From: Agelas oroides
Lineage: Eukaryota > Porifera > Demospongiae > Agelasida > Agelasidae
DNA length: 64,000 nucleotides
Reading direction: 5' to 3'
Assembly (NCBI GenBank): GCA_949130485.1
Contig: OX422193.1
Coordinates: 3,660,371-3,724,370 of the forward strand
The notes under the pieces were generated by a model, which worked only from the letters and a program-made list of their open reading frames with translations, had not been told where the DNA came from and did no database searches. The first letter of the stretch is position 1. Each line of letters begins with the position of its first letter. Positions 4,786-49,375 of this stretch are shown here, piece after piece. A program made the translations under genes and the position numbers.

Positions 4786-7700
4786 TCACTGTTTGTTGCT
4801 CCTCTTCGATTTCAAGCATGTGATTGATTTCTCAATCACAGTTACAACGACCAACACCAGGGCCTGTAGTGAGGAAGGAAAGCTGCTTTGCGATCCATTC
4901 ATGACTGCCTATGAGCAGCACAAAATTTAATTGTACTTCTGCACAGTTATGCACAAGATATTACATGACTTACATAAACTAGGAGAATCAGACCAAGTAT
5001 CTATCAGAACAGACAAGAGTACATTCCGCATGATGACAGCATAAATGACACATGAATTCACAGAGTACAGATATAGCTATGAAACTCTATATACAGACAA
5101 TTTATAGGCATTATCATTTCGAGTGAAGATGGAATAGCCATTGATAAGTTACTGCATGGGTAAATGTGTAGAAGTACTGTGAAGTCGCAATAATACACCC
5201 CTCCTTTTTTATACAGTACTTTGAGTCTAAAATGGAGATGGGGCATTTACCCGAATAATCAATTAGTATCGATCAGATGCCCTGGCTCTGGTAAAACACA
5301 ATGTTATGACTGTGCAAGGTCAACAAATCATTTACAATGACTGCAGTGCCTTCTGGAAGAACAGGTCATGTACAACAGAAATCAGCAGTACCTGTGTTGA
5401 TACTAAGCCAAGAGGCATCAAAGTAACTTGCATTATCAGTGGTGACGGAACAACCTATGTAAGCTCATACAGCAAGCAACGAAAACCTGGGCAGTGGCCT
5501 GTGAACAAGGTTAGTGGTTCTGTGTGTACACGTTTATGCAAAGACTCGATGACAAAGTTCACTAAAAGCAAGCCCAGAAGATGCTCACCAGGGGGTGTTT
5601 AAACGAATGAAATCTAACCAATCAAAGAAACTGGGGGTAAAGAGGGGTGACGTTTGCTCAAAGGGGTCGTATTATCATGAGTTTGCGATATACTTATAAG
5701 AAGAAAAACACTGCACAAAAGTGCCAACATAGTATGTCACTTGCTTCTATGTGCACACACATGCCACAAACTTTACGTAAATCCATGAAAATATCTGATC
5801 AAAGTATTCTTTGGTCATCCGTGAAAGTTTAATCCCCCGAAAATTTCTGGTTATACAGTTTATGTTTTATGCTTTGATAATGCATCCAGTTTATTCCACA
5901 TACAGTAGGAACTTGGAAGTCATTTATCCAAACTTCAGTCATCCAAATAATGTTATTCATAGACATTTTGCTGTACACAGTAAATGGAAAATAATCTGCT
6001 TTGTATACAAATAGTATTCTTTCGTTTATCTGAAGGTTTCAGTTATCCGAACACCCATCGGTCCCATCGTCCGGATAAGTGACTTCCTACTGCATATGTA
6101 AATTGGAATAGCTGTAACATATTAAATCGTGTTGTAAATAGACAGGTCACTCAGGCTTGTCCCAATGAAACACACGGATGTTAGTATAAATATCAGAAGT
6201 ATGTAAGTCTTACTGCTGCCATCGATCGGAAGCCCACTTGGTAAGCAAGTGCTCCACCAACAATAGCTCCCAAACTTTCCCTACACAATGAGCATGTACA
6301 TGCATGGATAAGAGAATAATTACTATATTAATGAATGCGATTTAATTAACAGCTTTAAAAATCCATACATTTATTGTTAGCTTACAGAATTTTAAATTAC
6401 TATGTATACTAATTACTCTTTTGTTAGAGCGGCCATCGCATGCTAATACAGTGCCCAGTATAATTCATATCATATACTTACTACATACATTATGTTGTGT
6501 ATGGTCCTACTTATTCCCTGTTGTATATCAACAGAGATGGTTTAGTAGAGATGCATTGGATGGTGGTCTGCAACTAGATATACCATTCAAGGATTCCCTC
6601 ATAAGTAGCGAAAGTGCAATAAATCAGTGAGAACACTGTATAACTAAATGGCAACAGAGGCCAGTTTGATTATGCTCTACCACGCAAGGAGGCTAAGCCC
6701 CAGCATGTAGATATACCATGAGGTACTAAATAATATTATACCAAACTCCTCACCCTGCAGAATTAATTCCAACAAAAATCCCCGACACAGTACTCGCAAT
6801 AGCTGTTTCACTTCCACCCACATGTACAGCCCTGGATAGATGGAATAACATCAACTGATCTGGAAACTGGATGATTCACCTAGTCGGTCGGCGTTCCTTC
6901 TACTTAGTATTAAGGTGGCACGCCTGTCACTCGGCGGAGGTTAACAAAAACATAAACCTGGGTTACAGTCAGGACCAGGGTAACTCCTAGTTTCAGGGTT
7001 AGGGTTTGCTTTAGGGCAATCTTGCTTTGCCTAATTGTAAAAAGGGGTTTAGTAGCTTATTAATACATTCATGAACCCAAAATTGGACGCATCTACATGC
7101 CTCACTGTAGGTAGCGTTCTAACACCAATGTATCTCAAACCAATCTATGCCAGCTTTTGTTCAGAGCTACTCTCAAAGTCAGCTTATGTTTGTCACTACT
7201 CTTGGAATGGACAACTTTGACTGCACCAAAATGAATGCACATTTTTAAAAATTCACAGCTTGTCTACGGGAGGGGCTCATTCACAAGTGGAAGCAAGCAT
7301 TACTAGCCCCACCTCTCCCTCTTATGTCGCAAAACAACTCACAGCTCTGTTCCACACACAACCACTCTTCAGCTCCTTTGGATACTGGAGTATAGTACCA
7401 ACGATATATTGTGTATTCTAGCTAAAGCCCAGCCCAGCACTCAAAGCACCTGGCCACGGTCACCAACTAGGCTAGGCACTCGGGCTGCAAGACTTGGGCT
7501 TACTCAACAAATACAGTCTTGGCCACTGTGGCCTTTCTGTTGATTCTAGACACAAGCTTGCTTTCACAAGGAGGCATTACGCACTACTCACAGCAACTGA
7601 CACTACAGCACTCTACTGAACTCCTTTTCTCAAGTCAATCTAAGCTTATCTTCAAAGTTCCAACCACCAAATGAGGGGTTCTGCCAGGCCACATCTTAAC

Positions 7701-10700
7701 TAACTTAATCATAAATGCACTATTGGATGCCAATGCCGACAGGAAATGGGGAAAATCCCCAATTTTACAGACAGTGAACGGTTGAAGACTCCCAAAACTG
7801 ACTGCTCGCTAAAAATTTAAGAAGACAAAGAATTCCATCAGCTTGGATTCCAGGTTTGTCGACCTTGAAAGTACAGGGCTCTGTGCCACCTTAATGTGCA
7901 TGACAGAGTATGCAGTAAGGATGTTCAGTGTATGTACTGCATGCAGTGAGGTACAGTTAGCACATGGTGCATGCAGTTGGTGTGGGCAGTGGGTATGGGT
8001 GCACTGTGTGTGCATTCATTGAGAGAATAATAATGAATACACTGAACACTATGAATACACTTTGAGTGTCCATGTTTGTCTACTGTAACATGACACATGA
8101 GTATAAGAGATGCACAACGTCAGGTGGGACAGGCTCTGGCTCTGGAGAGACACTCTTCAAACTACTAAACTCTAATAGTGCATGGCAATATAAAATGCAC
8201 TATAGCTTTTTTGTTTACACAGACTTCAAAACAAACTAGAAACTAGTATGTTAACTTCACATCACAAGTAAACATAACTAGTCCTACAATGCACTAAGAT
8301 GGGAACTGTTCATAAATTTTACTAAAGCTCTTGTTTTAACGTATTCACTGCCATAGCTGCCATATGGTGGCATGGGGTCATGACCTCATATTATTGTGCA
8401 TAACACATTACACAGCGCAGGGTGATGCTTAGGCCGGAAAGGCTAATTGTATTCATAGTATGTAGCATGCGCAGCATTTTGCATTTTATTGCCATTTGTT
8501 TGTTGCTGCAGCAAACGGGAACTACATGCAATTCACCTTTGTGACTCAAAGCACGTGGAAATTGCAATGAGAAAATGTGTGTGTGAAGTCCAGTCATACC
8601 TCCTCACGGTACCCCACGGAAACAATGGATTGATCAATCCAGCTGGCTAACATGACTGGCACTAGCCACAGTGCCATTGTGTCATGCAGTATTTGTTCTG
8701 ACGTGTCAGTTGATGCGTGAAAGGTACTGTGGCTTTGCACTGCAGTGGTTTTGCAAGCCCTCAGTGTGTATCCAAGTTTCCACGAGAAGCTGAGCCAAAT
8801 GGCACCAAGTTCTGGAAAACAGAGTCAAACCGCCATGGCCATAGTTGCCATGGTCAAAGACTACACATCGGTTGTTGGAATTTGCGGACACTTGTGGAGG
8901 CAGAAGGCGGCATTGCAATGAGTGTGGTTAGCCCAGCTCAAGAGGTGTTACAGTAGATCGTAAGGCTACACTGATGGTACAAGAGCTAAAAAGATTTAGG
9001 ATGAATGTCACAGGAATTAGTGAGACCAAGTGGTTTGGGCAGGCAGTGTATGAAGTGGAAGGGTACACCATACTCCATTCTGGACATCCAATCCCAGAAG
9101 AATCTCAAACAGCCGAGCAGAACGATGGAGTTGGCATAGTATTGGACCCCCAAATGAAAACAGCCTGGAAGGAAGCTGGTGAGATCTGGAAGGCAGTCAG
9201 TTCCTGGATTGTAACTGCTAGAATAAAGATTACAAGACAAGCTGGCGCTATGCCAGACAGACAAAGCAGCAGGGGAGCATTGTTAATGAATGTGATAAGT
9301 GTTTATGCACCAATTAACCCACCAAGCCAGAGAAGGAGTTCTTTGCAGTTCTCCAAGAAACAATTGACAGGGTGTGTGTAGATGATGTGTTGTTGGTTGG
9401 AGACTTCAATGCCAGAGTTGGTAGCAGTGGGAGACAAGATGTTTCAATGAGGGAGGGAGTGAGAGGATATCCTGGTGTTGGGAAGATGAATGAGAGTGCA
9501 TGGGGAAGCCCATTCTGTGCATTGAATGAACTTACCCATGGTTTGAGAAGAAGATCTATAAGTACACACAGCAACATCCAGGTAGCAAGAAATGGCACTG
9601 CATCGACTATGTGATGATGAGACAGAATCAGAGGAGGCTTTTCTGTGATGTCACTGTTATCCGCTGAGCAGAATGCTGGACTGATCACAAACTTTTGAGA
9701 GTAATGTTGCAACTAAAACCATCACAAAAGGTAAGATCAGGGGGAGATTTGCAGTTGCATTTTTGCGTGACAAAAGTAAGGCAAGAGTACATCACATGCT
9801 AGCCTCGTACCAAGGCCAGGTGGGAGGAGGGAAAAGTGGCCTGGTATCCACTGTTTGCACATGCGCGAACGATTCCGGAAATCTTCCACGAACGAGTCCG
9901 ATTACGGACAAGTTACACGTGGTTGTTATGCAGAGAAATAACCAAACTAGATATACGGCTTGCAGTGTGACAGCTGTGTTTACGTGGTGATGCCTTCCAT
10001 TATCAGAGACACAAGGGGTGACACAGCAAGGACTACGCTACAACCACTGCCGGTTCCACTGTCACTGTGCTTGTAGTTGAAAAAAAATCCTGGCAGAGTC
10101 TCGTAGCAGATGGACTTACCAAATCCTGTGGGTAGCCACAGGAATACGTCTTTATCATCGTAGATACATTTGATCGCATCCAGCTGCTCTGCTTTCAACG
10201 TGAAATCTCCCTTTCCAATACAACAAAGAGCAAACTTGAGCGCTTTATCAAAGTCCTCGCTTTTACCTGCCATGTTCACGGGATAAGCTTGAGACGGACG
10301 TGCTTCGGAGCTATACGCCAGTATACGGTAAAGATTAACGGTTCGTAAATGATGGTATACGATACCCCATGAAATCATGGGGTATTTTGCACATGCGCAA
10401 ACAGTGGATACTAGGCCACTTTTCCCTCCTCCCACGTGGCCTGGGTACAAGGCTAATCACATGCTTGAGTGAAGCAGTCAATGAGAAAATGGGAAAACAA
10501 CGCAAGTGGGGATAGAAAATGGGAGACGATCAGAGATGGGTTGACAAGGGCAGCTGAGAGTGTCCTCTGGTGAGAGAGAAGGAAACAACCTGACTGGTTT
10601 CGAGAAAACATCATTACGCTGAGTGAAGCAATCTCTAAGTGCAACAGATTGTTTTCCAAATGGCTGTCAATGTGACATCACAGCATGCATGCATGCAGAG

Positions 10701-13700
10701 ACAGGCAGAGGTATGTGGAGAGTAGTAGTATGTGAGGTGAAAGGTGAAACAGGCCAAGAACAAGTGGATCCAACAGAAGGCAAACCAAATAGAATTAGCA
10801 GTGCTTCGAGGTTCGTCAGGAAGAGAAGTGTGCCAAGGACTAAGAAATCCAACAGTGTAACGTTCACTCAGCCATCAAAATGTATTATATCCTCAACAGT
10901 GAGTTTTTATAGCAGAAATAATATTGTGAAGCATGTGAAGGCTGCCAGTGGAGGGCTACTGTCAGAGTGCAGCGTCAGGGACCTGGAGCAAAGACAACTG
11001 AAGTTGAAGCACACGTGGCACTGGTTTGTGCTTCTACCGACGACGGCAGACCAATCACAGGCAGTACAAATTGAATATGGACGGTGATTGACTGGGTCGC
11101 TTCAGGTAACGGGTCATGCATAAATGGCACTCAGAAAAGTCAGAAATTTAGCTCATGATTTTGGTGTAAAGGCATGTGTAGCCACGTTAGCAGCCCTGGC
11201 AGGTCGGTTTCAGGTCAGGGCCATGCATATTAAAATGGCACTTATCAGTGAGATAATATCCGCTTGCTCAGGCTCGCCCCCACAATGTTGTACATTTTCT
11301 AGTAATTGGTGACATGATAGGGTCACAATAGTGATACAACAGAACAGTGAAAGTTCATAGTTCATGGAAGGTTCTAGAAGGATTACTGGCATCTGGGATT
11401 GTCTATCAGAATGCAGGCTCTGAGTATTGTCTCTGACTTGTTTCGGTACATGGCTCCCCCTCTTGGAGGACACAACCTCATGGCTGAAGGTACAGATGAA
11501 TGTGGGATGCATAGTAATCTGGAGGGTGGGTTGTTCTCCTTAATCTACCACCCCAGGTTGGCCCACCACATTCAGCTGGTTCTCTTTGCTGAACTTTGCC
11601 TTCTTCAGTAGTTGGGTGCCAAATCAGAGTCATTGCATGCATCCTATTCATTGTCGGAAATGTTTCCTTGTTCTCTGTTAACTTCATTGGGCTCACCTTC
11701 TTGCTGAGTTTCCTGAGTTGGTGTTTGGCAAGACTTCAGGTGGTTGAAATGTACAACAAATCTGCCTGCAGCGCCCTGGTTTTGGTTTCTCAGATTGAAC
11801 TTGATAGGTGACATCTAACAGAACTATAATAACCACAAATGGTCCTGCCCAAGGCCGATGCAGCTTTGGAGATCTGCCTCTTGGTACTGCAGGAGAATGA
11901 AGCCAGACCCAGTCTCCCACTTCATACCTTCCTCCAGATGCCCAGCATTCATACTGATATTATTGCTGTTTCTGGGCTGCCTTGGTGTGTTCTCTCACCA
12001 GTCTAAACATTCTCCAGGCGAGCTCGTAATTCTCTAGCATATCACATCGATGGACAGACGGATCTCTTTTCCAAACATAAGGTGGAGTGGAGTGAACTTT
12101 GTGGTATCATGTATACTTGCCCGATATGCCATCAGTAGTTCTGGGAGGAATTCATCCCATCTGTCCTCCTCCTGTGCTAGAATGCTCAACATCATGATCT
12201 ATGTTCGGTTCATCTGTTCTACACAGTCGTCTGATTGTGGATGATATGATGTGGTTCTTGTTTTCTCTATACCAAGTAATTTACCAACTTCAGTGAAGAG
12301 GTGACCCTCAAAATTTGCACATTGATCAGAGTGAATGGCATCAGGAACTCCAAAGCGACAAATCCACACATTTACCAGAACTCTTGCCACTGTAGCTGCC
12401 TCTTTGTTTGGGAGAGCATAAGCTTCTGTCCAACGGGCAAAATAATCGCAAACAACTAAGATATGTTTGTTGCCATGGTTGGCATGACAAGTGTTTGGAA
12501 GTGGGGCCAATAAGTCCAATGCAATGCGTTCCATTGGATAACCAACATAACTTGGGACTAAAGGTGCCCGTGGAGTTTGGCTTGGTGACTTTTAATTGGG
12601 GCATTGTTGACACCAGTCTTCAACATCGCTTCTCATCCCTGGCCACAAGAATTGATCTTTGATTTTGGCCAGAGTTTGGTCAGGCCAACCTCCAGCTCCA
12701 TTGTGCAGTGATTGAATTACCAAGGGTACAAGACTCTGAGGTACAACCAGTAGCTGTTGACTTGTAGCTTCAATGGTGTCATCCCAACATCGGAACAATA
12801 CTCCCTCCAACTGGTTCCACAAGTCCCAGAGACTTCGGAGCCCGGTTCCGACATCCTGAATTTCAGACATACATGATCGTCCTTTTCCAGCTTCCAACCA
12901 TTCTATGACACTCATTAATTCAGGGTCCGCCAATTGAGCTTCTCGCAATTCCTGTGTGGTCCATGGCAATACCCATGAATTGACAACTGCTGGCACTGCA
13001 AACACTTTGGCTGAAGCATCATTTTTAACTTGGATTTCCACATGGCCTTGGCTGCACTGACGGCATGGGAATCCGGAAAGTGCATCTGCATTCTGATAAT
13101 GCTTGCCTGGTTGGTGTTCCAGGCTGAAGTCAAACTCCTGCAGCTGCTCCAGCCATTGTGCTACCTGTCCTTCAGGTCCTTTGAATCCTTGGATCCACTG
13201 CAGGGCTGCATGATCAGTGCGAACCACAAAGGGCCATCCAATCAGGTAGGCATGAAAGTGGCGCATGAAGTAGACTAGTGCCAATAGTTCCCTCCAAGTG
13301 GCATAGTAATTCCTTTCTGCTTTGGTCAGACTTCGACTGCCATGCATAGGCAATGACTCTCTCAACTCCTCCCTGTTTTTGTGATAGGACAGCACCAATT
13401 CCATTCTTGCTAGCATCTGTGTCAAGATAGAAGGTGCTGCCTGTTTGTGGGTAGCCAAGGACAGGAGCTGACATCAATTTTCGTTTCAGGGATAAATGCT
13501 AGGTCACAGTCTTCTGACCAGATGAAAGCGCCTTTCTGCAGCAGACGGTGCAACAGGGTGGCAATCTCCTCAAATCCTTTCACAAAGCGGTGATAGTATG
13601 ATGCCAATCCAAGGAAGCTTTACTGCAATGGAGCTGAGACATGGGCCAAAAAGAGAGATACCTCCCACAGATCGAGGTCTTCCACAGCAGATGCCTCTGA

Positions 13701-28700: not shown

Positions 28701-31700
28701 GCATATTTAATGAGTTTCTGGCTGCAGGCCTGTCAGTGGAATCGCCAGCGTACATATTTCCGCGATTTCATCTGCAGATGACATAATTTAAAATCAGGTA
28801 GCGGAAGTAGTGTGAACATGGCCGACACGGAGAACTTCAACCAGTTCTTTGGACCACTGAAGCAGGGTTACATGTAGTCTCGTTCCCAGACCCTCCTCCA
28901 AAGAGGAAAGGAGGGTCTGGCGAATATAGTACATCCTCAGACCATGGGCTAGCCATTGCTATGGATTTCGCTAAAAGCTAAGCCTTTGAAGTTGCTTGCT
29001 GGGCTTCAGTAAATTGGAAGTGTGCTAAGTAGGTCTGTAAAGGTGTGATGAGTAAAGCTAAGTGGTTTGCGGTAAGGAAGCCCAGTACAGGTGAGATAAT
29101 TTCCAAATCAGCCAATCAGATTGTGCCGCCGAAATTCCATGGAGGTACAAAAATGTTGTACTATATTCACCAGACCCCGCTTTCCTCTTGGAGGATCGAG
29201 GGGGGTCTGGGGATGAGACTAGGTTACATGTAAAAGGTAAGCTTTTGTCATGTTGTGGATGGATGTAATAAAGTGATGCTAGGCAGCATGGAGCTTCGCA
29301 AAGCACCGTTTGGGTGATAAAGGCGGTGTTTGTTGTCATGGCCTATTTTGCTGGGGTTTGTGTTCGATGTGTTTTGAGTTGCCCTGGGCTGTGTAAGTGC
29401 GGGACACAGTAACTCTTCCCATTGTCATATAGATCAATGAGTGTAAAAGCCATGTACAAAGTTTTACCGTGATAGCTATGGGTTACAGCAAATGGCACCA
29501 AGATTTATACAAGTTGGTTGATGTGACTAATTACTGCAAGTGGAGATACATTGACACAAAGTGTCCCATACCCAAGTTGCTGTGATGAACAGCACTGCTG
29601 TTAGAAGAGCAGATGAGAATATCTAGATGTGAATTAGCATACTAGCTTACTGTAGGTAGCTATCTAGTTGATAGGCTACTATAAAATATAAAGAAAAGTT
29701 GTGTCATGTCATCTGCATCACTCACCCTTCTCAAAAACAAAATGTTTGATCCGGTTCTTTAACTCTTTATTTCACCCTTTTCAGCATTACTGTCTTCAAC
29801 TAGTGTACTGATCTGACTGGTACTCATTAAAACATTCATTTATTTCTCTTGATGGGGTTTGAGGAGCCTGGCAATAGGATGCAAAATATAGTTGCCTACA
29901 TTTCTTGTCATTTGCTTTACACTTGGCATGCATATACACTTGGTGTTTACAACAAGGTTTGACCTGCTTTCTGTTTTCATTGTTGCAGGGTGGAAGGTCT
30001 TGACATTGGGTGCTTTGAAGTTTGCACAGTCTACGAGCGCTGCGAGGGCTTTGACGATGCTTCTGGACTAGCGATGTGATGGAAACCTATTTTACCAATG
30101 AACAGATTTGTAACTAGCACCTGCAACCCAGTTTAAATTGGTCTTCTTTGTGTGCTGTACTTTGCACTTAGAAATAGCTTCATAGAAAGATACTTCAAGC
30201 ACATTGTATGCGACAGGTCACATAACCTGATATGTTTATTTCATAGCTTCATACCAGTTGACATGTCTGAAAATACTGAAATCGTCTATTTTCTATGTTG
30301 GGACACAGAAAATGCAGCTCCACTCTGCAAGAGAAGGTCTTAATCTACTACCAGATATCGTCAAATACCACCTGGAGGCTGGTTACAGCAAATGACACCA
30401 AAAAAACCCAGCTCTAATCCATCGTGACAGATTTTAGGCATTCATAAATCAACTTTGCATTGACCGTTTTACACCAGACTTTTTGTGTCAAGAAAGCGAT
30501 GCTACCAGTGGTTGTGAAAGTACGTCTATCTGCGCGTGGCTGTATATGCTTACTTCGCTACTGTGCCAAACTCTGAGCGCATCACCCATCGGTGAAAAAT
30601 CTTTGCTCCGCAAAGATCCGTAAACGTCTGCAACACGTATATGCATCCATTGCAAAAGAATTTATATGTGCCCTTACGGACCTCCGGTACGCTGGCGATT
30701 CCGCTGTGTTTCTAGCTTTGGATGGCACCAGCATGCATACCGATCCCTCTACTAGTGGAAGAAGTACCGCAAGTCAGTAAATAATGCCGTCTTCATCCGT
30801 AATGAAAGTTTATTTGTTGTTTCAGCAGCGGGTACGAGTGCATTCCAATTAAAGCACATGCCGCAGTTGCTACACAGCATATGCCCTGCGGGCTATCGAA
30901 TACGGACCATCAAATATGGGAAAATATTAGTCATGTTGCTCCATGGGAAATACTATTGGCGCGTATACTAGGTATATAATAAATATACATATACATTATA
31001 CCTCAGCACGAAGTGCCCTGGCCCATAGCTCTTCATACCTGTTCATTCACACTATTCGAAGCTATTTCAGCACATTGCAGCTGCTGCCTGTTGTACCATT
31101 TTCTAATAATGAACACATGTGTACACATAATCTCATTCCCAAATCACCAACCACTGCAATTGGTCTGAGAATGGACTAATCCATGCAAGCATGGTGTGAG
31201 TCAAGTTGACGACCTCTCCCAGCCAAGTGGGTGGGATGCTAGTTTCAAAGCAACACTACTGACGCTACAAAGGTGAGGTGCTGCTAACTGCTACACGACA
31301 CACAGTCTGACTTACCGCTATTTGTTGCACTACAAAGCCTCAGGTACCAGACCTTTACAATTTCAATGCAGTAAACAGGATGAAGGTCGGGGGTTGTGAG
31401 GCTACTTAACTAGTTACACATGGCCATGAGACAAGGTGCATTAAAGTGTCTGGGGTCCAGACTACCTGTTTGTGGGGCAAACTTGTTACATGCTTGAACT
31501 TATCACAAGTACTAAACAGTCAGTGCTGTTTCAAGCATTATCTATATGGATGCAATTGATTGAAATAGTGCTTATTACTTCACATTGGAAAAAAATAATC
31601 AGAAACAAGGAATAAAATGAAGAGATGTAGCAATGGCAGGGAGGATATAAAAGTGAAGATAAATATCCAAAGCACCATCCCTACATCATTACTCTATAGT

Positions 31701-48794: not shown

Positions 48795-49375
48795 AAAAAA
48801 CATTAAAAATGTAAAAAGATGTAGGGATGGCATGCCAAAAAGTATGCAAACAAGATAATGCAAAGGTCAACATATTGGCAAAGCCCCATCCCTACATCTT
48901 TTTCACACTACAGGTAGACGTGCATGGGGGTCTTCCTAAAACGTACCACAAGTTCACAACCTTTACTGGCAGTTCATGGCTGTAGCCTCATTCTCAAGCC
49001 ACTTCCTTCTCCCACGTGGCCTGCGAACGAGGCTAGTATCACCACCCTCTTTGTAGCATTATATATGGAACCTCTTCAACAACTTTAAGCAGTGAGTTGG
49101 AGTAGACTGCAGACTTATGATCATAGTAAGTGTTATTAAAGTACATGGCACGGTTTCAGCCTTGTCCCTAGGCCACTTCCCTTCTCCCACATGCCGGCTC
49201 AGGAATGAGGCTAATATGATCTAGCAGCATTGCATCAGCTGTAGCTAAGTGTGAAAAAGATGTAGGGATAGGGCTTTGCCAATATGTTGACTTTTGCTTT
49301 CATGCATCATCCCTACGTTGTTTGCATACTTTTTGGCATGCCGTCCCTACATCTTTTTACATTTCTTTAAGTCTT
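48795..49375. mobile_element. Foldback with inverted arms and TAGCCTC mini-elements in the loop
   Basis: The arm 48795-48905 (AAAGATGTAGGGATGG, GCATGCCAAAAAGTATGCAA, GGCAAAGCCC) is inverted at 49250-49375. The loop has two degenerate TAGCCTC...GAGGCTA units, at 48983-49035 and about 49157-49212, both with a CCACTTCC-TTCTCCCAC core like the RecQ-carrying element ends. Confidence 0.7.

Follow-up and report, generated by a model that had tools for sequence, protein, structure and literature searches.

A 656-bp sponge element with a RecQ helicase fragment is very probably a deletion derivative of a two-gene DNA transposon

The stretch of the Agelas oroides genome analysed here (64,000 nucleotides; the window) contains a 656-bp element that carries part of a RecQ-type helicase gene between terminal inverted repeats (TIRs). 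We conclude that this element is very probably a non-autonomous derivative of a two-gene DNA transposon that encodes its own helicase, most likely of the class AcademH. An apparent case of gene capture thereby becomes an ordinary product of internal deletion, and one false Pack-MULE case is removed. The window element is ordinary in kind; the useful part of the result is the link between the protein family DUF6589 and RecQ.

Structure and copies of the element

The earlier note had placed an element with 9-bp target site duplications (TSDs) at positions 9800..10455. These coordinates are exact, and the duplicated sequence ATCACATGC flanks the element without mismatch. The TIRs that it had described are present at both ends, but they measure 70 nt with 90% complementarity instead of the 65 bp claimed. 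The terminal bases of the element are TA...TA.

9791..9799, no strand: left 9-bp target site duplication, ATCACATGC
9800..10455, no strand: 656-bp transposon copy, read from its TIRs, TSD and copies as a non-autonomous, MITE-like internal-deletion derivative
9800..9869, plus strand: left TIR, 70 nt, 90% complementary to the right arm, head TAGCCTCGTACC...
10386..10455, minus strand: right TIR, 70 nt
10456..10464, no strand: right 9-bp target site duplication, ATCACATGC

An initial search of the 259-Mb genome with the element's DNA gave 620 candidates, 40 of which were scored. All 40 are 91-100% identical to the window element; 39 of them span bases 1-654 or 1-656 of 656, and one spans 1-646. 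With 40 of 40 scored copies at this level of identity, the window element is not a chance arrangement.

For closer comparison 38 loci were fetched (L001-L038), and four of them were dropped as second views of the same places. Of the remaining 34 distinct copies, 26 had been picked by protein similarity. The mean identity of the 34 to their majority sequence is 97.5%. Thirty align end to end and four in part; one of the latter (L003) stops at base 654 and has a TSD that scored as exact. Exact 9-bp TSDs flank 22 of the 30 end-to-end copies, and 24 of 30 have TSDs with at most one mismatch. In the other six the TSD has two or more mismatches or is missing. The duplicated sequences are varied: the 22 exact TSDs comprise 18 distinct sequences, with four copies sharing one TSD and two sharing another.

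Insertion site

The two flanks of the element belong together.

8932..9799, plus strand: left flank and insertion target, decayed LINE-like coding sequence (LINE identity weak); 9600-9799 is present in the empty site
10465..10664, plus strand: right flank, in which the interrupted repeat continues; matches the empty site

When joined, they match a paralogue without the element at C16:3395058-3395473, with 86% identity over 400 of 400 bases. Because of this element-free paralogue the insertion is well supported. The proposal that the element interrupts a LINE reading frame holds with respect to the insertion, but the identity of the target as a LINE is less clear. One of two flank reading frames gave a match to Exo_endo_phos under the cut-off (E=0.029) and the other gave none, while a PDB search with the flank reading frames returned no relevant match. 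These frames are decayed and contain stops. Judged by this one domain match, the flanks may tentatively be called LINE-derived.

The helicase fragment

The reading frame described in the earlier note is the minus-strand ORF 9980-10456, which comprises 158 codons and is open through the right TIR. The helicase gene's own ATG lies inside this frame at 10273, 183 bp from the right end of the element, and the same methionine starts the helicase in two larger relatives (L069 and L074).

10002..10273, minus strand: 5' part of the element's RecQ helicase gene, with Met at 10273; larger copies in L069, L070 and L074
9980..10001, minus strand: tail of the frame past the deletion junction, a few foreign codons and a stop, non-helicase

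The fragment covers the first ~90 residues of a RecQ-type helicase. It contains what we take to be the SF2 helicase motifs 0, I and Ia, and it lacks the DExH box and the second RecA domain. On its own the fragment matches the Pfam DEAD family with E=1.2e-4, below the curated cut-off. A PDB search returned RECQ5, RECQ1 and BLM at E values of 1e-3 to 6e-3, in a list that also holds chance matches, among them the top-ranking entry and several more (sensor kinases, tubulin). The larger relatives match Helicase_C and RecQ_Zn_bind in Pfam, and the second half of the helicase in the C1 copy matches WRN with 1.6e-30. These matches secure the family name, so that the call of a RecQ N-terminal fragment stands despite the weak scores of the fragment itself. 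The possibility that the segment is an exon of a normal gene was not borne out either, as no RecQ gene exon was seen at the window locus.

Internal deletion and relatives of the same subfamily

The structure of the window element is best read against a larger relative on C12 (L074). This copy is 2,609 bp long, has TIRs at both ends and a TSD with 8 of 9 bases matching, and contains the whole helicase gene, in broken form, and, on the opposite strand, the beginning of a second gene. It aligns with bases 1-205 (90.7%) and 203-656 (89.5%) of the window element. In a global alignment the window element lacks a single block of 1,963 bp, and ATC is common to both sides of the joint.

10002..10004, no strand: internal deletion junction with the 3-bp microhomology ATC, from the global alignment with the C12 relative
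9990..10004, plus strand: first codons of the second gene, truncated by the deletion; in larger relatives a zinc-finger-like start is followed by DUF6589

The junction pattern occurs at 132 places genome-wide (68 and 64 on the two strands, at most three mismatches), and a reversed control pattern at none. With the same junction at 132 places, the family is present in high copy number, and the copies that carry this junction most likely derive from a single deletion event.

A search with the helicase fragment returned 434 candidates and at least 150 scored matches. Two of these, on C4 and C12, extend into the remainder of a RecQ gene that belongs to the same subfamily, with 100% and 91% identity, respectively. 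In the C4 copy (L069) the same TIRs enclose 1,778 bp with a disrupted helicase gene that matches Helicase_C and RecQ_Zn_bind; TIRs are found at both ends of this copy and no matching TSD. The ORFs around it at L069:1736-3118, 6201-7319 and 9243-9901 look like what we presume to be Crypton/DUF3504-type tyrosine recombinases. The best fragment matches that were read (L009-L038, L069, L074) are all element copies or larger relatives.

The second-gene start of the C12 relative resembles the first exon of full-length elements, with 50% identity at C1:3610405 and 37% at C4:1898666. What survives of the second gene within its own subfamily is this start, plus short fragments on C8, C2 and C16. Since these fragments adjoin helicase-fragment matches, they look like products of further deletions. 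Within this subfamily no copy was found that has both genes, and the only two helicases that reach the C-terminal part (C4, C12) are broken. Either the parent of the subfamily is lost or absent from the assembly, or the copies were moved in trans by relatives.

The earlier note had offered, as its second choice, that the fragment was left over from an autonomous parent encoding a helicase of its own. This reading is supported down to the deletion junction, through L074 and the 132 places that share the junction, with no autonomous copy in the element's own subfamily. The longer elements with these TIRs that the note had suggested looking for do exist: L069 and L074 hold the broken helicase, and more distant relatives on C1, C2 and C4 carry DUF6589 and RecQ.

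Full-length relatives and proposed origin

Three full-length relatives have the TIR type of the window element.

C1:3610194-3616939: 6,746 bp, 67-bp TIRs 100% identical, TSD 8/9
C2:11929731-11935339: 5,609 bp, TIRs 93% alike, exact 9-bp TSD
C4:1898465-1904274: 5,810 bp, 75-bp TIRs 100% identical, exact 9-bp TSD

In each of the three, the plus strand carries DUF6589 (PF20231) and the minus strand RecQ. TIR length is about 67-75 bp in the window element and its C1, C2, C4 and C12 relatives, and the RecQ helicase was found between TIRs in L069, L070/L072 and L074. A copy on C5 (L071) is 93% identical to the C1 element and has no left TIR. The first ORF of the C1 element matches zf-AD under the cut-off (2.9e-5). 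A putative GT-AG intron interrupts the helicase gene at the same place in both subfamilies, after the DEAH motif, and the coding sequences of L069 and L070 appear to rejoin in frame there. At C5:6233127, the site of a distant DUF6589/RecQ pair, a TIR was looked for in the fetched stretches and not found.

From these structures we propose the following origin. The full-length parent, a DNA transposon of the cut-and-paste type, would have carried a DUF6589 gene with a zinc-finger-like start, reading inwards from the left TIR, and a RecQ gene reading from the right TIR, so that the two were convergent. Comparison with the C12 relative shows that one internal deletion, joined at the 3-bp ATC, took out the central part of both genes; what remains is the two TIRs, the opening codons of the second gene and ~90 helicase codons. 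The transposase of a relative may bind the long TIRs in trans and thereby move the short element. The helicase, for its part, may aid transposition of full-length elements by unwinding or remodelling their ends, and the fragment in the window copy would be a passenger without enzymatic function. Ds, derived from Ac, is a classical internal-deletion derivative. The window family is similar to derivatives of this type in that the ends are kept, the middle is lost and many copies stem from one deletion, but it differs from them in the class of the parent and in its coding remnant.

Association of DUF6589 with RecQ

The pairing of the two genes extends well beyond the elements described above. The DUF6589 profile gave at least 118 matches (102 of 165 candidates scored), which cluster into 83 places; the C-terminal part of the helicase gave at least 111 matches (131 of 170 candidates scored), which cluster into 91 places. 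Among the matches listed, 42 DUF6589/RecQ pairs lie within 5 kb of each other and all 42 are convergent, compared to 0.5 pairs expected from random placement on contigs whose lengths were partly approximated. Among the same matches, no partner lies this close to 41 of the 83 DUF6589 clusters or to 49 of the 91 RecQ clusters. Some of the partnerless RecQ matches are probably host genes. Five high-scoring RecQ matches (C1:37824, C14:5106866, C2:13014777, C8:7869794 and C3:9248939) lie in single frames of 764-1511 codons; several have near-equal scores and none is close to a DUF6589 match. They perhaps represent another RecQ-bearing mobile family, or host genes.

All 42 of 42 neighbouring DUF6589/RecQ pairs have the same orientation, which makes a transposase role of DUF6589 and the role of the helicase testable. 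RecQ gene counts in such genomes would need these elements set apart. If a DUF6589-RecQ class is real, this genome offers dozens of copies for studying why a cut-and-paste transposon needs RecQ.

Seven DUF6589 loci were read (L070, L071, L075-L079), and pieces from six of them were aligned, with L079 left out. The motifs GDNxD, GGDQLT and EDWH are each conserved in five of five covering rows, as are EGDGxR and DLxxEH in a second alignment. None of these motifs is present in the 1.4 kb that were fetched of L079 (C11:3058713), which has a very long frame and no RecQ partner. The conserved acidic motifs fit a DDE transposase, and by these motifs and its position in the elements DUF6589 probably is one. 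A PDB profile search with alignment A2 gave a sole match at chance level (E=0.14), and a pattern search with one 293-aa piece found no relatives in viral and genome contig collections. Further DUF6589 matches at C2:19766780, C17:3662260, C18:6756821 and C11:2404783 lie in frames of ~1900 codons without a RecQ partner. Such long-frame, partnerless DUF6589 genes possibly form a second, single-gene lineage.

Classification and alternative explanations

Which known class fits these elements best? Terminal inverted repeats, a feature of AcademH, bound the window copy as well as the C1, C2, C4 and C12 relatives. AcademH is reportedly the helicase-encoding lineage of the Academ superfamily (said to be from Kojima 2020, Mob DNA 11:15). 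According to excerpts of PMC10045372, AcademH has 9- or 10-bp TSDs and AcademX 3- or 4-bp TSDs, a difference tied to the encoded helicase or nuclease; the title of the founding paper and these excerpts describe AcademH as helicase-encoding and as reported from animals and fungi. The elements of this study have TSDs of this length, exact over 9 bp in 22 of 30 small copies and in the C2 and C4 relatives and 8/9 in the C1 and C12 relatives, and RecQ is encoded in L069, L070/L072 and L074. The likeness to AcademH thus lies in 9-bp TSDs and an element-encoded helicase, with AcademH itself represented by a title and by descriptions in citing papers (excerpts of PMC10799480 and PMC10045372). A difference is that the window copy is a 656-bp derivative that encodes neither protein in full. 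We regard AcademH as the best fit, probable but not proven, and DUF6589 with its conserved acidic motifs as a candidate Academ-type DDD/E transposase.

The elements might instead form a distinct two-gene superfamily that has nothing in common with AcademH except a helicase and the length of the TSD. DUF6589 would then be the transposase of a class with convergent RecQ as its regular partner, and this class would be a new superfamily if separate from Academ. Pfam describes DUF6589 as a family of unknown function, and no mention of it was found in the literature searched. A nuclease-bearing Academ relative with XPG was not found in this genome either; there are three XPG_I matches and none is near a DUF6589 match. 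The combination of a helicase with 9- or 10-bp TSDs given for AcademH in the excerpts of PMC10045372 nevertheless fits the elements at hand, and we consider a separate superfamily unlikely.

A different question is whether the fragment has been kept as a functional small protein, for example as a dominant-negative regulator of the full-length helicase. The frame is open in many copies, and changes are rarer at second codon positions (40/3229) than at first (75/3230) or third positions (82/3229), in a set where 26 of 34 copies had been chosen by protein similarity, which biases this count towards intact frames and led us to leave it out of the evidence. Few stops are to be expected in any case, since the copies are near-identical, and stops and truncations do occur among the helicase-fragment matches listed. 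Such a function is accordingly quite improbable, and we favour the passive fragment proposed above.

The earlier note had preferred a Pack-MULE, that is, a Mutator-like element whose TIRs came to enclose a captured part of a host RecQ gene and which then multiplied. Long TIRs and 9-bp TSDs are typical of MULEs and count for this explanation, and Pack-MULEs and MULE-derived MITEs combine them with an internal gene fragment, as the window element does. The window family with its ~9-bp TSDs and long TIRs has this MULE feature, but the feature is not specific to MULEs. MULE transposases do occur in this genome, with at least 119 matches to PF10551 (150 of 194 candidates scored), and TIR heads of the TAGCCTCGTTCCCAGG type are also found close to some of them. 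With similar heads near MULE matches, the TIR head alone is not diagnostic. One ~830-bp element at L065:398-1246, with the 9-bp TSD AGAAAACAT and the TIRs TAGCCTCGTTCCCAGGCCACTCCC, lies upstream of a MULE match at L065:1501.

Several observations stand against capture. The full-length relatives encode DUF6589 and the helicase as genes of their own, which are convergent in 42 of 42 pairs, and larger elements with the same TIR type and TSD length own the helicase from which the fragment comes. A scan of eight ORFs from L069 and L070 turned up no MULE domain, and none of the PF10551 matches listed lies inside the elements described. The parent-type elements, without a detected MULE transposase and with a fragment that stems from their own gene, are in this respect unlike Pack-MULEs and MULE-derived MITEs. 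The earlier note had named TIRs unrelated to the helicase in other copies as an observation that would speak against its reading. In those copies the TIRs are linked to the helicase, with similar heads near some MULE matches. We also considered capture of a near-identical host RecQ gene and rejected it: RecQ loci over the family cut-off are, where matched, just 29-38% identical to the L069 helicase. Better-matching loci without a DUF6589 partner (C9, C61, C3; 54-65%) are fragments, and short ones reach 40-50%. Taken with these observations, a Pack-MULE origin is highly improbable.

Least probable of all is a KolobokH-type element, a Kolobok transposon carrying a RecQ helicase: KolobokH, like the elements here, joins a transposase and RecQ in one element, and in one red-algal Kolobok (Kolobok-1_CCri) the helicase is on the complementary strand, but excerpts of PMC9587614 give this different superfamily TTAA-specific 4-bp TSDs and 5'-RR...YY-3' ends, in contrast to the varied 9-bp TSDs and TA...TA termini of the present family, and report KolobokH from fungi only. 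The RecQ gene is thus shared with KolobokH and the TTAA duplication is not, and we retain the derivation from an AcademH-like parent.

Other elements in the window

The window contains three further features of note. A 347-bp element at 28866-29230 has the 9-bp TSD GGTTACATG and imperfect TIRs that start with TAGTCTCGTTCCCAGACC; it probably belongs to a related or look-alike MITE family. At 12202-13470, on the minus strand, lies a pol remnant of an LTR-type retroelement with RNase H, integrase zinc-binding and integrase core domains. Finally, positions 48983-49035 form a 53-bp foldback in which almost no interior separates the two TIR-like ends (TAGCCTC...GAGGCTA); its right arm is 83% identical to the right TIR of the 656-bp element over 41 bases.
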